NCBI GenBank assembly: GCA_015179125.1 | Contig: WHVA01000282.1 | Span: 62,001 to 126,000, forward strand | Reading direction: 5' to 3' | From: Gautieria morchelliformis | Lineage: Eukaryota > Basidiomycota > Agaricomycetes > Gomphales > Gomphaceae | Length of the DNA stretch: 64,000 nucleotides | Shown here: positions 7,650-56,377 of the stretch, one piece after another | How the letters are laid out: each line of letters opens with the position of its first letter | How positions within the stretch are numbered: the first letter of the stretch is position 1 | The notes under the pieces: model-generated | What the model was told of the DNA's origin: nothing | Seen by the model: the letters and a program-made list of their open reading frames with translations, nothing else | The model's database searches: none | Translations under genes and position numbers: made by a program

Positions 7650-7717
7650 ATGCAGTGTCCGCTCACTGATGGTCATATAAAAACTTTTGTGTGACCATCA
7701 GTGAGCGGACACCGCAT
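7650..7717. repeat. Hairpin, 21-bp perfect arms in 26-bp near-perfect arms
   Basis: Arms 7655-7675 and 7692-7712 are exact reverse complements (TGTCCGCTCACTGATGGTCA core). With one mismatch they extend to 7650-7675 and 7692-7717. The loop is 16 bases and A/T-rich. It does not follow a gene, so it is unlikely to be a terminator. It may be a tiny palindromic element or the source of a small hairpin RNA. Confidence 0.85.
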
Positions 7718-31832: not shown

Positions 31833-33815
31833 CTACTTAGGTATGAAAACTCTGGCTCCTTTTGTCTCCTCCTCGAATTTCTTCTCCATTCGGCGTATTC
31901 GGCTCTGTGCAAGGCCTCTCATCCAACTCTTGCCGCCCAAAGCGAAGAAGGCCAACACGCCCCCGACCATCCACAGTCCGTACCACTCCATTCGCCGCCA
32001 TGCCTCCAAAGAGTCGAAGAAACCACCGATCACGAATGGAGCAACGGTGAAATTCAGGAGCATCAAAGCTGCAAGTGATCCCACGAAATCGTATAGCCGC
32101 TTGATCACTGATGACGGCAAGTGGTCTGTCTCCGGACGGTGAGGTTCTGGTTGTGAACTGCCTGGAGGAAGGACGGGAGGCAACACTAGAGGTCGGAAAT
32201 TTGCACGGCACATGCGACCGGCGGTAGTGACGAAGCCACCCAGCAGGAATGTTATGTAATAGCCACCGGCAATCCCATGCTTGGAAACCAATTTCAAACT
32301 GCATCATACCTTGTAGCTGGAGCATAGACTCTTACCCAAAATGCCGATGTGATGAAGGTGACCATGCTGCTTTTAAATCCAGGCTTCCTCCCCTTCCGCG
32401 CGACTCGTTTGTACATTGTCTCGCGGAGCCATACATTAGTCTTCATGTTCCAGGAGTCCAACAAGACTTTGAAGTTCGATGGCCACTCTATCAATAAGAT
32501 GTTCACATTAGCAGCTCCACCCCAAAGACTACCTCCTGAAGCTGTGTATCCTGTAAACCCAAGACCTGTAAGGATGCAAGCACCCTGGTTTACTTAGTAA
32601 CCATCATGGCTCATACCGGTAACGGAATCACTACCTCACTGAGCAACCAAACTGAATAGTATTTTATCCTTGCCACGAACCCAATGAGTTGGACAGTGAG
32701 CAATCTTCAGAAATGAAGAATGTTACGACAGTATATCACGGGTTGTGTATTCTTCTTACCGGTTGAGCAGGCCCTTCTGCAACCACGCATCCGTCAATAC
32801 ACTTTGATAAGGAAATCTTCCACCGAGCACGACAAAAAGCCCCAGGCATAGAAAGCCGGTCCCCATGCGAGTGTATGCTACTCGTTTTCGTCCACGCGGA
32901 ACATGCTTGACTCGCGTACGACCATCTTCCCCTGCGGACTCGAACAATGATCCATCTATGAGTGAGGCGTATGTCGTGTACTCAGTATATGGCCCGACCA
33001 GGATTCCCGGGAAATAGAAACTGGACATGCGGTCGTGGTAAGTAGTCTGGGGTGTGTTGACAGCGCGTCACTGACGCGTATCCGAGAAATTCCAGTAGTG
33101 AGGGCATGGTGGCAACCCGGTGTTTCAGCTGCCATTTATCTAATTCCTATACGCTCAGTCAGGTGTGAGGGGTTATGTTCTTACCCGACAGCAAACAATT
33201 CCTTGCCTCTGCCGGGCGACGCCCATCCCACACATTCCATGCAAAAGTGGTGAGCTTCATGGTCAAAACCATTTGAGAGCTTGTGATGTCAAATGTTTCG
33301 TAAGGTATCTCGTATATAGCGCGGTAAGCATGGCTGGGTATGAAATTAAGGGAATCTTTAACAGAGCGCGGCGAGCGCCAGCATCAAGCTCACTTGAAAG
33401 TCAAGAGACTCATATCAGCGCTGAATGAACGTTAGCAAAGGGACACGGGTGGTGAATAAATTCTTATGCTCACGCAAACACGGCCCACGGCATGCTTGGA
33501 CCACGCAGTGTGGCGGCCAGGATATATGTCACCAGAACGCTACAGAGGAGGTGCAGTATTTCCGGCCACAGATGCATGACAGGCAACAGAAATACAGTGG
33601 ACACGACTACGCTGAAAATGTGCTTCATAGCCGGTTGCGAGCGAGGTAGCCGTACAAAGACATTGCCCAAGGGATAGCTTACGACCAGGCAAGTAATGAG
33701 CTAAACAGCATGCAGATAAGCCATGAAAATATGCATAAAACTCCATAGAACAAGCCTTTATTTGATCAAGCGATGCGCCTGTAGCGTCTGCCAGAGGCTT
33801 GAATAGGTCGTCCAT
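31833..33815 (-). CDS. MBOAT lysophospholipid acyltransferase (Ale1/Lpt1-like)
   Basis: ER multi-pass acyltransferase that reacylates lysophospholipids in the Lands cycle. Start 33815 (MDDLFKPLADATGASLDQIK). Hydrophobic segments follow, then a cytosolic segment SFYFPGILVGPYTEYTTY characteristic of this MBOAT branch and GRKRVAYTRMGTGF. The conserved Asn is in SWNMKTNVWLRETMYKR (family motif WN..TNxWLR), and the catalytic His is in TSAFWHGIAGGYYITF, split by an intron at TSAFW/HG. The C-terminal half has further membrane segments (ALMLLNFTVAPFVIGG) and a Lys/Arg/Glu tail ending ARVFIPK at 31833. Numerous short introns; no disruption found. Confidence 0.88.
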
Positions 33816-47167: not shown

Positions 47168-48896
47168 ACGGTGTAGAGATTATCGGGGCTGGTTAAGTGG
47201 AATTCTCTGGGGTCCTAGGGAGCGCGATGTGGCTCAATCAACACCATTGAACTAAGACCACAGACAACCAACCGTACCTGTTATTTTCATCGACGTACAC
47301 CGCAGCTCACAGCATCTCGATGCACAACCAGATGTGACACACGACTCACAAGCGCAGTCCCCAGGAGACACCGTTGCGAGCGGATATCTTCTCCCAGCAG
47401 CCACTAGCAGAGACCAGCAGCCACTAGCAGAGAAGAAGATGGTAAAGCGCAGGAAAAGGAAACAGGTGCCGCGGTAGGTGGTGGGCCCGTGCACAATACT
47501 CCAAGCGCCCACAAAAGTATATACAGCAAGCGGCGCTGAAATGGGATTTTCTTTACCACTCTGGCCTTTTGGTACGCGCCCCATAACCTATAACTGCACA
47601 GCAACTAACAGACTCTACAGGCTTAGATCAAGTGTAGTATCTGTTCTTTTTAGTTTAACCACTAAAATGACCGCACAGCGGTCATCATTGGTTAGCCAAT
47701 TTTTGCCGCCCTCGTCCTTCGACCTCTGCTTGCACGTTGGGGGGCACGATGACCTTGCTATTGCAGTACCGGCTTGTGTCGTCGGGGGATCTTCTGTTCG
47801 CTTACTCTTACAACCTTGTCATTGTGGCCCTTATTGAAGGGACAGGAGCATGGCTGTAACGGGACGTGAATAGAACTTCCTTGTGTCCCTGAATGTGATC
47901 TGGGGGTTTTCACTTTTTACAGCTTGTCCATGATCTGGGTCTTGTGCTCGGTCGATATTGGGTCCACTGGTGGCGGAGGCTCAACGTTCAACGTTTAACT
48001 TGATGAGCTTCAATATGGCTTCTCGCTTGACGCTGTAGGTCTGGGCATTGAACGCGCGAGAGCACAGCCGGGTGTTCTGAAGAGCAGCCTGCGTGGAATG
48101 CGTTGTTCCCCGTCTGTTCACGAAAACCACTTTGCGTATGCTTGTCTGCGTTGGCACAACCCTTCGGTCTCGAAATATGGTGGTTATTCCCGTGTGCATA
48201 GCGGGGCTTCGCATTCAAAAAATCCTTGGAAGGATGTACGGGACAGTCTGCATCTCACGCCGAGGGAGAGTGGTTGTGACTATTAAGTACCAGTTTTTTG
48301 AATGTTAGACGGGAGCCTGCTTCTATTGGCATTCGACTGGTACTCTTCTGTCACCTCGTTACTTTGTGGTCTCGGTACTTGTGAAACGGTTGGATAGGAA
48401 TGCCACAAGTGGAACTTCGGTACAGCACTCGGTTTCCCGCCCTTCCACACTCACAAAGCACCATCGAACGCTTAGTTTGAAGCTTTCTAGCCTCTCGTTG
48501 TGCTCGCTTGGATATAGCTTCAGTGCCACGCCGATTGTCCACCACATCGTTCGTCCTGATGATAATTGATTGTGTAACCTGCCCACACCTACATGCTCTC
48601 TACTATGTTTTCTCGGCTACGCAGTCAACTCTCAGCTCAACATGTCGTATCAGCACCCCAACTTCCCGCTTACCTATGGATCGTTTGATCTATGGGTGAC
48701 CAAGCACAGCGCTACGTTGAGATTTTGATATTTTCCCGCCCCACGTCCGATGTGTAGTACGTACGTGTGCGTCGTCTCTCTTTTGCTCTTGACGGGCTGC
48801 ACCCATAACCACTCAAGGGATTCGCATATATAGTACAAATAGCTGTAGTGTACAGGTGAGCCGCAAGGAATACATAAGTAACTAATTTTGTCTTAC
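47168..48896. other. Gene-poor interval with small repeats
   Basis: No gene recognised. It contains two perfect tandem 20-base units at 47394-47433 (CCAGCAGCCACTAGCAGAGA) and a small palindrome ATGACCGC-ACA-GCGGTCAT at 47667-47685. Open frames near 47980-48310 on both strands have no domain. Confidence 0.45.
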
Positions 48897-51265: not shown

Positions 51266-51552
51266 ACTAGGGCAGGCGGCTAGATAGCCGGGAAAGGGCA
51301 AGGGCTCGCGGGTTGGATAAACAGACGTGGGTGTCCAAACACATAGGCTTCAAGCTGCAGAACGGCTGACCAGCGTTATTTCAAGGCTTGTTATATAAAA
51401 AACTTACAATTATGTCTTATGTGACTAAACATAATGAAACCTTGAAGCTTGACTACTTAAGTATCCGTGACCTATATGTTGCCAGACTGCATAAAAAGCC
51501 AGATGGTGTTGCACGTGACCGGGAAAAAATCTTACATAACCGAAGCAATCTC

Positions 51553-52812
51553 ATGGACCTTACACTTGAAACGCTGCCAGTAGAGCTTTTGGCAGATATC
51601 TTAAGCGGGCTCGACTTGGCGTCTCTGCTTGTTGTCTCCGGACTCTCGAGAAGGCTCCGCGCTGTTGTGAGCGACGTGAGTGGCTATTTTCCGTCAAGCT
51701 GACACCTAGAAATTGGCTTCACAAGCCATCCTTGAATCCATGGCGACGCGCTATGTTTGAGAGTCTTCAAGCGGATGATCTTGATCCACGCTTGACAAAC
51801 CTTAGCGTACGAAATATTGTACCACGCCAGAATTGGATAGAAGTGTTTGCGATAGCTAGGCCAGAATGGGTTCTGTATGAGGCGACTCTGCCTAATTTGA
51901 CGGACGCGGAGTGGGAGGAGTGTTTTTCGAGGAGGTTCTTACCCGGATGGAGGAAGTGGAAGAAAGACGGTAGATGGAAGCCGGCGTTTCTGACGTGCGT
52001 ACGCCGAATGGTATGGTTTCGTGGATGTTTTTTGAATATCTTGACCCTAGGACTCTATCACTGGTGATTCACCGTCGAAGGACACGCTGCACTGCCGATG
52101 AAGCTTGGACAAGGCGAGAGCAGGCTTCTTTTGGAGATAAGTGGCCAGTGGCACTTACGATGGCACAGGTACATAGTGCTCAACAGAAACGGGTCTGCAA
52201 ACCAACTAGAGGCGTCATCAAGGCATTTCAGCCCGGCAGCTCTATTCCACGAAATAAAGTAAGCGACAGTATGGATCTGAGATGTCGATCTCATGCCCAA
52301 TCTTGTTACTGAAGGGTTCAGAGTGATCTGCTCCATCTTGATACTCGGATCCGAGTGCGCCGATCCGGTTTAATCGCACCCGAGGTGTTAAATTAACATT
52401 GACAACCGCGATGTACAGGTAGTAGCCCAGTTTGCAGATGCGCGGATTCTTGCGCTGGGTGTACTGCACAAACCTCGCAAATCTTTCCGGGTTAATGCCA
52501 ACGCGTGTTTGTTACTGCACCCGCCGGATATCTCACGTGCAAAACTGCCTCACCTCATATAGAATATTCCAAGTACACACCCGGCGGACACGACAAGCGT
52601 CGGGTAACGACGACAGGGTTGGAGGAAGACGGGGGTATATGGGTGGAGAGCCTGATGTCTGTGCCTATTTTGACACTCAGCTCGTTGGGCTCACCGAATA
52701 ATACTGCAGGCTTGTCGCGCAGTTGATTAACCCAGCTCTGGGGAGGGCCGAAGAAGAAGACTTTGAGCTTGTGGTAGGAGCGGGCCATTCCCAGTACTGC
52801 TCTTTCATTTGA
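51553..52812 (+). CDS. F-box domain protein, exon structure uncertain
   Basis: ATG 51553 gives MDLTLETLPVELLADILSGL and SLLVVSGLSRRLRAVVSD, a clear F-box that would bind Skp1 in an SCF ubiquitin ligase. Downstream exons include NPWRRAMFESLQADDLDPRL, a W-rich stretch, TADEAWTRREQASFGDKW and LEEDGGIWVESLMSVPILTL. A last open segment, LVAQLINPALGRAEEEDFEL, ends at 52812 but is out of phase with the preceding one, so an intron or a frameshift lies near 52690-52710. No substrate-binding repeat is recognised. Confidence 0.6.
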
Positions 52813-53570
52813 CCCGACCTGTGGGCTATTGCTCTGTGGATGATGGACAAGGTGACGAAACGTATTGAAGGGGCAGGCCTCGGGCTTGATTGATAGCCAA
52901 TGATGGATACATTGTCGTTAACACACAGCCACCGTTGCTGCTCACACGCGTGTTGACATTGCAATTGCTGACAGCAAGGAAATATGGGGTTGCACTTAAC
53001 CCCCTTCTGGTTAGGAGCGGACCCGAATATTTGATAATGTTTTTTGTCCTTACAGCAGGCGAATTGCGCGCCGGCCCCTAACCCGTCTCTGTTCTGTTGT
53101 ATGGTTCCTGTCCACCCTCCTGCTGTACTCTATTTTCACCAGGTGCGTACACTTCAACCTCCCTGTGCCCACGTCTCCTGCTGAAGCTTCACCCGAGCGC
53201 CACAGTTGTACACGTGCGCATGTGGCATTAGAAGCAGCGCGTTTGTTCTGTTTGCCCGATTCTATTCACTAGCCCAATCCTCCTCACCCTGTCGTCATTG
53301 CATCGCCCCCACCCTGAAAAGCTCTAAGATATGTAGTGCATTCGGACGCCGCGTGGCTCGGCATCACCGTATCGCCTCTAATTTTCAGACGAAAAGAGAC
53401 TGGTCTCAGATTACTGTAATACACGCGATCGAGATCTGTGAGGTATGTCTTCTACGTCCACCTTTCGGCCGCGCCTCCCTCCTAGTTCCTTTCCCACCGC
53501 CTCCGCTGGGGACCAGCATATAAGTTGAGGAATGTGTGTTGACCGTCCCCCTCACCCATCATGCCATCGC
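52813..53570. other. Intergenic, upstream of the zinc-finger gene
   Basis: C/T-rich sequence that looks like promoter and 5' leader. An open frame at 53206-53523 has no domain. Confidence 0.4.
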
Positions 53571-54364
53571 AGCGCGAGCAGAAGCCTGGCAAGCTGGTAA
53601 AGAAGTAGGCATCGTCATTCTAACTCTTCGTCTTCATGAATCCACCTCATTCCTATAGCAAGACCCGAAGCGGTACACATGCGAACACGTCGGTTGTCTC
53701 AAAGACTTCACACGAAAGGCCGGCCTAAGGAAACACCAGCTCTCTCATACTGGGCTTAGGTCAGTGGCTGCGACCAAAGATGGCATAGTCCATTTTTCAC
53801 ATCTCACTGTCTGTCCAGCGTATCCACCGGAACACTCAGTACGTCACCGGTGTCCTACGCTCACAGATGATCTAACCTTCCGCTTCAAGTACGGGGGCGA
53901 AACCATACCAATGTGGCTTTTGTCCGCAAAGGTTAGGTGACCCTGCGAATCGTAGCCGCCACCGAAAAAACTGGCATGGTGACATAGTCGCCTACATTTG
54001 CCACCCTTGCAGGGACACGTCAGTCCATATGATGCCCCTGCTACTAAATTTTTGGCATAGATTCGAAAGAGCAGATAGTTTTTTTGACGACTATTTACCA
54101 AACAGGCACGGTATAGACTGGTGGAGCATCCCTTCTGAGCAGCGCCTCACTATGATACTTTATAGCAAGACCTCACCTCTACCAGGATCCTATTCGTTCC
54201 CCAGAGCAGGGGATGATATTCCTGATCAGACTGCCCCTCGGTACACCCCCTCCCTCAACGCCTCGGACTCGGCTTGGAACACCTCATCGCTTGGCGACTC
54301 GATGTTGAATTCTGCATCGAGCAGAACCACTCACGTTGAATGGCACTTCGGTGTGCTAACGTAA
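53571..54364 (+). CDS. Small C2H2 zinc-finger protein
   Basis: ATG 53571 gives MPSQREQKPGKL; an intron then leads to QDPKRYTCEHVGCLKDFTRK and AGLRKHQLSHTG, a complete C2H2 finger (CX4C, HX4H). After a second intron comes a degenerate finger, PYQCGFCPQRLGD with SRHRKNWH. The C-terminus (NFWHRFERADSFFDDYLPNR through HVEWHFGVLT) is Ser/Pro-rich and has no domain I know. A nuclear DNA-binding role is inferred. The second splice acceptor is uncertain. Confidence 0.65.
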
Positions 54365-54425
54365 GCCGGTGACGCATACGCACAAAGGTAGACAAAGGAG
54401 AGAATTCTAGACAAGGCGGCGCGCA

Positions 54426-54520
54426 GCAAAGTACAAGGCATTCCTTGTACTTTGCAAGATAAGGACTTTAGTACAATTAGGATATCCTATGTATTTAAGA
54501 CAGCGACTCATGTCGCTGTC
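54426..54520. repeat. Two small perfect hairpins
   Basis: Hairpin a: GCAAAGTACAAGG (54426-54438), 4-base loop, CCTTGTACTTTGC (54443-54455). Hairpin b: GACAGCGAC (54499-54507), loop TCAT, GTCGCTGTC (54512-54520). They lie just downstream of the zinc-finger gene and just before the large inverted duplication; the first could act in 3'-end processing. Confidence 0.8.
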
Positions 54521-54738
54521 GGATCCAACGAATACCAGATCTACTTCGATCTACACGGGTGTTTCACAGAATTCCGCATAGCGTGATGCTTGCTGTGGCC
54601 CTCCTTCCCGATCGCGCTCACGGCCCTCTCTAACTTCCTCACTCCACGGACGCAGACGGTACCCCACAACCCTCACGAGGCTCGGGCTTGGATGCCATAT
54701 TAAGCGACAAAATAGAGTTTGCTGAGGGCTCGTCCACA

Positions 54739-55301
54739 GGCGCATTGGCCTAGGGAGAGGCCAAGTATCCGTATATCAATGTGCCCAGCGATGAGGTCAG
54801 TGGGTCAAACTTCCCTCACGCTCTGGCTGACTCTACTCGTCCCAGAGCGCACCCACTTCTCCGTTCACGCCGGATCATTCAATCATAGTCGCCCCATCAT
54901 CACCACCTGGATGGTGAAACATCAGACGAGCCCCGGATTCATCAATACTGGCAACACCTGCTTCCTGAACGTACCGAATTCTGGCGAGCAAAAGTTGTTT
55001 GCTCGCCAGAATTTGGTACGTTCAAGAAGCAGGTGTTGCCAGTATTGCTGAATCCGGGGCTCGTCTGATGCTTCATCATCCAGGTGGTGATGATGGGGCG
55101 ACTATGATTGAATGATCCGGCGTGAACGGAGGAGGGGGCACAGCGCCATTTGTGAGTGGCTTAGCAGGTGAAGGGTTTGAGCATTGTGTGCGCTCTGGGA
55201 CGAGTAGAGTCAGCCAGAGCGTGAGGGAAGTTTGACACACTGACCTCATCGCTGGACACATTGATATACGGATACTTGGCCTCTCCCTGGGCCAATGCGC
55301 C
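54739..55301. repeat. Large inverted duplication with ubiquitin-protease fragment
   Basis: Left arm 54739-54992 and right arm 54998-55301 are reverse complements over almost their whole length, with only about 5 bases between them. Differences are scattered substitutions plus about 50 extra bases in the right arm (about 55132-55190). Read outward-in on the left arm, one frame gives SPGFINTGNTCFLN, which is the Cys box of ubiquitin-specific proteases (GLxNxGNTCFxN). The right arm carries the same fragment on the minus strand. No other protease domain is present, so this is a gene fragment captured in a palindrome. A transcript through it would fold into long double-stranded RNA. Confidence 0.85.
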
Positions 55302-55533
55302 AACATTCCTTAAATTGTAGTTGAATGGCAATTTTTAGCTATTATTTTCGGGGGTTGACCAAATTTTGAGCAATGAAAAATATAACTAAGGCATTTATCG
55401 AAAATCGGCTCGTGCAATTCGACTCAATTAATCTAGAGCAGTGTATTTCCGTTGAAAACGGCTGGTTTGGACGGTTCCTGGAGCGTGGAAAATTCAGTCA
55501 CGAAAATTGTCAATTTTGTATGTCCACAACTGT
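55302..55533. other. Spacer before the hAT-like element
   Basis: AT-rich sequence without recognisable features. Confidence 0.4.
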
Positions 55534-55541
55534 AGAAGGGG

Positions 55542-56377
55542 TAGTGATGGGCACGGCCTGGCTTGGCCTGAAAGCTGTGGCTTTGGCCTGGTTAGCGCTG
55601 GCTTTGGCTTGCAAAATCCTGAGCCAGGCCGTTGGCACTTGGCCTGGCTCGGCTCCAGCTTGGCCTTGGCTTGGGCCATGGCCTGTTGGTGGGGGAATGG
55701 ATTGTAGACACAGATATCATTTTTTTGTATGTAGTGCAAAAGAGATTACATAAAATTCTTCCTTAAAATTCTTCCTCATCGTCGATGATGTCGTCGCAAT
55801 CACTACCTGCCCCGGAATCATCGGAATCATCGATACGATGATGACACATGGCAAGTGGTAATAATAACAAGACTATACGATGACAAATCAACTCAGTGTT
55901 TGCACGGTGTCAAACCACTGAGGGAGACTTTACATGACAGTAGCTACTTATAATTTTATGAGAACAATAAGACTCGCAATAAAGGGGAATAAAAGAATGT
56001 CTTGCGACTGCGCAAGACCTAAAACGGTCAATAATGACCTGCTGACTAATCAGGGGCTTCGGGCGCTGCGGTTTGCAACTCCAACAGATGGCAAGTGGGT
56101 AGAGAGTAAGGTTTAAGACCACTGTAACTACACTACATATCATGAAAAACTGTTTATGTACGTGCCAGTATCAGAGCACAGATGTCCTTTTTGGCGACCG
56201 AAGATCCTGGATTTAAGCACCCGCAGGCCCTGGCTTCCTGGCTCGGCTCTGGCCTGTCAAAACCTGAGCCAGGCCCTGGAGCCGGATGTGCCAACGGCTT
56301 GGGCCTGGTTTGGCTCGGCCTATCGGCGGCTTGGCCTGGCTCGGCAGACGGCCTGGGCCGAGCTGTGCCCATCACTA
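55542..56377. mobile_element. hAT-like non-autonomous element, 836 bp
   Basis: The ends are perfect 13-base terminal inverted repeats TAGTGATGGGCAC / GTGCCCATCACTA. They are flanked by the 8-base direct repeat AGAAGGGG at 55534-55541 and 56378-56385, the target-duplication size of hAT transposons. Both subterminal regions are dense in GGCCTGGC-like repeats. The inside has a minus-strand acidic stretch (DDSDDSGAGSDCDDIIDDEE), possibly the tail of a lost transposase, and copy B of the dispersed repeat at 55892-56018. No transposase domain remains. Confidence 0.88.
55892..56018. repeat. Dispersed repeat, copy B
   Basis: Internal part of the hAT-like element. Matches 48897-49025 in order and orientation, including the CTCAGTGTTTG start and the ATGTCTTGC...GCAAGAC hairpin. 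Its beginning also folds on itself (CTCAGTG...CACTGAG). Confidence 0.55.

Follow-up and report, generated by a model that had tools for sequence, protein, structure and literature searches.

A near-spacerless palindrome within a truncated copy of a USP36-like gene is probably a scar of fold-back repair

Two copies of a ubiquitin-protease (USP) gene fragment face each other, with almost nothing between them, in the 64,000-nt stretch of fungal DNA analyzed here (the window, C318:62001-126000 of the assembly). How did this palindrome arise, and does it serve a purpose? A sequence-only reading of the window had suggested that a transcript from the locus would fold into a very long hairpin and might act against a full-length USP gene elsewhere. 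The evidence presented below favors another answer, wherein the palindrome is probably a rearrangement scar produced by fold-back repair in a dead gene copy. The features of the locus are collected in Table 1.

A repeat search confirms that the two arms, as originally described, are 254 bp (left) and 304 bp (right) long and are separated by 5 bases. The search recovers an inner ungapped inverted pair (54852-54992/54998-55138; 141 nt, 95% complementary, 5 nt between) and an outer one (54739-54861/55179-55301; 123 nt, 95% complementary), which are a single inverted repeat interrupted by an indel. When the arms are aligned with each other, 244 of 254 columns are alike and 10 carry substitutions, and there are 50 gap columns. 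Thus, the scattered differences and the indel of about 50 bases, on which the sequence-only reading had based its view that this is no simple assembly fold-back, are genuine features of the alignment. The reported USP Cys-box motif is also present, as GFINTGNTCFLN in the left arm and GFSNTGNTCFLN in the right arm. The description of the arms as USP fragments holds for most of their length and fails for the innermost 23 bp of each (54970-54992 and 54998-55020), which are common to both arms and are not USP sequence. A genome search with a pattern containing these central 23 bp, allowing up to three mismatches, found matches nowhere outside the two arms.

Table 1. Features of the palindrome and its surroundings, in window coordinates.
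Feature	Position	Strand	Evidence and remarks
Segmental duplicate of C167:35881-31536 (reverse strand)	51513..54969	+	blastn pieces at 91%, 86%, 80% and 79% identity
Dispersed repeat, edges approximate	54339..54555	+	45 match rows including itself, with 40 of 94 candidates scored; aligned to 3 copies
5' part of USP pseudogene	54558..54738	+	Single copy in the window; runs unbroken into the left arm; in-frame stop within
Left arm of inverted repeat	54739..54992	+	End of USP exon 1, intron 1, and the Cys-box exon 2, from which 50 bp are missing; in-frame TAG
Innermost 23 bp of left arm	54970..54992	+	Non-parental; elsewhere in the genome, with 3 mismatches allowed, matched in the right arm alone
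Loop, AGTTG, 5 nt	54993..54997	.	Read from the sequence and repeat search
Right arm of inverted repeat	54998..55301	-	Inverted copy of the left arm with the 50 bp retained; 86% identity to parent
Filler, 8 bp, between right arm and next repeat	55302..55309	.	Sequence and repeat alignment
Truncated copy of a dispersed repeat	55310..55535	+	7 other matches, 3 near full length

The RNA structure predicted for positions 54730-55310 has a folding energy of -529.5 kcal/mol, compared with a mean of -201.6 kcal/mol (sd 6.9) for 100 shuffled versions, none of which was equally stable. The fact that no shuffled sequence matches this stability excludes a chance origin for the inverted repeat. As the sequence-only reading proposed, the RNA, if made, would be predicted to form a very long hairpin.

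We searched the genome (a 122-Mb assembly of 1113 contigs) with positions 54700-55340 and obtained four match rows at two places, namely the window itself and C167:31536-31858. A parent USP gene therefore exists elsewhere in the same genome, as had been supposed. On C167 the arm sequence begins a USP gene that looks full length and lies on the minus strand, with its start codon at 31972 and a 54-bp intron 1 spanning 31765-31712. Frames further downstream match the Pfam UCH profile at positions 2-188 and 197-254, and for one frame from the mid-domain region the best solved relative is human USP36 (3.3e-29), followed by USP46 (3.4e-14). Judged from these frames and Pfam matches and not from a complete gene model, the parent looks like a full-length, USP36-like gene. 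A genome search with C167:30399-31535, the part of the parent that is missing from the window, found no second place.

The inverted duplication is real but does not stand alone, because its arms belong to a larger segmental duplicate that starts at 51513 and had been overlooked. This segment (51513-54969) includes the beginning of an F-box gene, a C2H2 zinc-finger gene and the first exons of the USP36-like gene. Its Pfam matches are F-box-like (4.1e-7) and zf-C2H2 (7.9e-4), the latter falling under the curated cut-off at C167 as well as in the window. A genome search with 51500-54340, in which very common words were skipped, found no third place. Identity to C167 is 91% over 51513-53320, versus 79-86% further right in the same duplicate, an unevenness that could reflect gene conversion or different constraint. 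About 97 bp of the C2H2 gene on C167 are without a counterpart in the window. In addition, some 800 bp of C167, comprising the end of the C2H2 gene and the region upstream of USP, correspond to only about 220 bp in the window, and these are mostly the dispersed repeat at 54339-54555, for which blastn homology to C167 is absent.

The USP copy, when read in the frame of the parent, meets its first stop after 15 codons and another, TAG, in the left arm. Homology to the parent ends at window position 54969, equivalent to C167:31536, within the exon just past the Cys box. The locus thus lacks the open frame with Cys and His boxes of a functional USP protease: it has in-frame stops, nothing in the window matches C167 beyond the Cys-box exon, and the window frame at 54716-55051 has no Pfam match. 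Homology between the two places is evident from these alignments, and the segment appears to have been copied between the C167 locus and the window. The parent gene being full length, we infer that the direction of copying was from C167 to the window.

The order of events can be approached by comparing the left arm, the right arm and the parent over 231 three-way columns, which also gives the arm-to-parent comparison that the sequence-only reading had recommended. The parent differs from the left arm at 25 columns and from the right arm at 24, and the arms differ from each other at 9. Both arms agree against the parent at 20 columns, and the changes confined to one arm are divided into 5 on the left and 4 on the right. 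Intron 1 is present in both arms. The 20 shared differences, the shared intron and the shared non-parental 23-bp center indicate that the template for one arm was the other arm, not the parent. Since the left arm is the only one contiguous with the rest of the duplicate, the right arm is the copy. The presence of the non-parental 23-bp junction in both arms further indicates that this copying came after the duplication junction had formed. By the distances, the fold-back is later than the duplication, or else gene conversion has since evened out the arms. When the 50-bp indel is polarized against the parent, it is a loss on the left-arm side.

Several other sources of the arms or their differences were considered and rejected. 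A retrocopy is ruled out by the retention of intron 1 in both arms, and an independent second insertion from the parent is ruled out by the non-parental center and the 20 differences that the arms share. Likewise, C-to-T hypermutation of the RIP type does not explain the differences between the arms, as only 2 of 9 polarized changes are from C:G to T:A.

On the other side, the right arm ends at 55301 and is followed, after 8 bp, by the interior of an unrelated dispersed repeat. In the three copies of this repeat that we inspected (L008, L009 and L010), the shared sequence extends leftward past this point, into what is arm in the window. The same repeat has at its right end an 836-bp stretch (55542-56377) that carries terminal inverted repeats (TAGTGATGGGC...) and is flanked by 8-bp direct repeats AGAAGGGG, a layout that we take to be hAT-like. 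Elsewhere, the window carries a U2 spliceosomal RNA gene at 47608-47791 (99 bits versus a cut-off of 46), which together with the 54-bp intron shows that the DNA is from a eukaryote; the short introns and the genes present point to a filamentous and probably basidiomycete fungus. A tRNA search found none.

A broken end that folds back on itself is predicted to leave a short loop, a few hundred bases re-copied in inverted orientation and a filler-joined stretch of unrelated DNA. The locus has two inverted arms with a loop, one of which is contiguous with its source segment, while the inverted arm is attached to unrelated DNA through the 8-bp filler and the truncated repeat. We propose that a segment with an F-box gene, a C2H2 gene and the first exons of the USP36-like gene was copied initially, with the copy ending inside the Cys-box exon and becoming joined to non-parental DNA. 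A broken end would then have folded back through the 5-nt loop, and DNA synthesis would have copied about 300 bp as an inverted second arm, either after the duplication or with later arm-to-arm gene conversion. The architecture of this step is plainly visible, and fold-back is the mechanism that it suggests. The new end would subsequently have been attached, through 8 bp, inside an old repeat, a junction that is present in the window. The copy has decayed, acquiring stops, losing 50 bp from one arm and having its upstream region replaced by a repeat.

This is a historical event read from architecture, and the 23-bp center, which has no other match, gives no evidence of inverted microhomology before the fold. 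The same pattern could also arise from sister-chromatid fusion or from template switching at a fork. Both the differences between the arms and the loss of 50 bp resemble neutral decay, and on the strength of that decay the palindrome most likely has no present function. Its value lies in what it records on a small scale and in readable form, a case of break repair in a genome rich in repeats, in which the source, the first junction, the loop, the second junction and the order of events can all be traced. Our verdict is that the type of scar is ordinary and its history unusually readable.

We gauged how uncommon such a structure is from a background sample of 283,801 bp, consisting of the window plus 19.8 kb of C167 and, from contigs known to be long and not picked at random, four blocks of 50 kb. 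This sample yielded 13 rows of near-spacerless palindromes above 50 bits, some of them mutually overlapping, and only two palindromes that span at least 300 bp. One is the USP palindrome; the other (L027:3321-3717, equivalent to C604:133321-133717) is a high-copy element with 760 candidate places genome-wide. Each of the 40 candidates scored matched on both strands (80 rows), and the 39 other copies among them are 92-94% identical to this one. The aligned arms of the C604 element are 82% alike, versus 244 of 254 columns for the USP palindrome, which was found once and is gene-derived. The sample also contains inverted repeats with 1.1-1.5 kb between their arms, such as one of 214 bp at 98% on C670, indicating that inverted duplication per se is not rare in this genome. 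A short near-spacerless palindrome, with 33-nt arms and 2 nt between them, lies at 7650-7717 of the window. Among the titles listed by literature searches that used neither species nor USP terms, none describes a USP palindrome of this kind.

Spacerless inverted repeats are a familiar chimera pattern, and this counts in favor of an artefactual fold-back created in the library or the assembly. The arms, however, are separated by 10 substitutions and a 50-bp indel, and they do not diverge from the parent in one direction. Rather, parental bases stand in the right arm at the 5 columns where the left arm is variant and in the left arm at the 4 columns where the right arm is variant, and the 50 bp missing from the left arm are found in both the right arm and the parent. 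With the differences divided between both arms in this manner, an assembly fold-back is rejected, and we hold an artefact of either kind to be extremely improbable. Equally improbable is a palindromic transposable element carrying a captured piece of USP. The C604 element demonstrates that the genome harbors palindromic elements in high copy, but the USP palindrome occupies a single place in the genome search, its left arm continues into the segmental duplicate where an element end is absent, and no target-site duplication was seen by eye at the arm ends. A palindromic MITE or foldback element is rejected on copy number, with one place versus 760 candidates.

We also consider it unlikely that the locus is a natural long-hairpin RNA gene, wherein Dicer would cut siRNAs from a stem of about 250 bp to silence the parent USP36-like gene. 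The near-perfect stem of the predicted fold means that a long self-complementary transcript is possible, its would-be target is present in the same genome, and the host has candidate Argonaute and Dicer proteins at the domain level only, with Piwi-domain matches on three contigs (C948, C147 and C449) and RNase III domains on C948 and, as an adjacent pair like that of Dicer, on C14. Exact runs shared with the unspliced parent reach 28 nt (7 exact 21-mers on the left and 15 on the right), and the 21-mers that match the exonic parent with one mismatch number 9 on the left and 48 of 284 on the right. Exact exonic 21-mers, in contrast, amount to just 1 of 234 (left) and 2 of 284 (right), and each arm departs from the parental sequence in 24-25 of the 231 columns. 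Furthermore, 6 of the 10 arm differences would disrupt pairs in plus-strand RNA, the stem bears no sign of selection, and the upstream sequence of the parent is absent from the copy, where a dispersed repeat stands in its place. Precedents make the proposal not absurd: a rice study describes an inverted pseudogene pair with many small RNAs on its stem and none detected from the parent gene (PMC2708354), and in plants miRNA genes have been proposed to originate by inverted duplication (PMC3237417). Hairpin RNAs of fungi were re-analyzed in a 2022 paper, which states that exploration is still needed to establish clearly whether organisms naturally use long-hairpin RNAi (PMC9757828), and this palindrome, if transcribed, would be a concrete candidate for such silencing. 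By analogy, it might even be a nascent hairpin-RNA gene of a filamentous fungus that arose when fold-back duplicated part of its target, the USP36-like deubiquitinase gene, and that uses the upstream dispersed repeat as a promoter, a version that we judge to be less likely still. If true, it would represent an early stage, in fungi, of the plant-type inverted-duplication route to small-RNA genes.

Among known systems, the siRNA-yielding hairpins of rice (PMC2708354) and the pseudogene siRNAs reported from mouse oocytes (Tam 2008 and Watanabe 2008) resemble this locus in having inverted pseudogene arms derived from a parent and a stem of more than 100 bp. The rice pair has small RNAs on its stem and a loop of 1,283 nt, compared with 5 nt here. 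The model for the birth of plant MIRNA genes (PMC3237417) shares the inverted duplicate of part of a possible target and the overlap with a pseudogene; it differs in concerning plants and not a fungal genome, and in involving a defined mature species.

The fold-back scar that we favor has its counterparts in yeast and human rearrangements. In yeast, loops at fold-backs have a median of 4 nt in mre11-defective and 3 nt in sae2-defective cells, compared with 36 nt where MRE11 and SAE2 are intact (PMC7467729). Since wild-type loops there are larger, a 5-nt loop would not be the usual wild-type outcome in yeast and, by analogy, fits the kind that wild-type cells suppress. The sequenced human inverted duplications have spacers of at least 766 bp (PMC3907307) and are a looser parallel to the 5-nt loop. 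The yeast and human cases are gross rearrangements, whereas the palindrome here is an old one of only about 300 bp that lies within a contig, with 9 of 231 columns differing between its arms. The fold-back inversions and inverted duplications of yeast and human (PMC7467729, PMC3907307) share with it an inverted copy beside a broken end, a loop at the turn and a junction to other DNA, at times with inserted bases.
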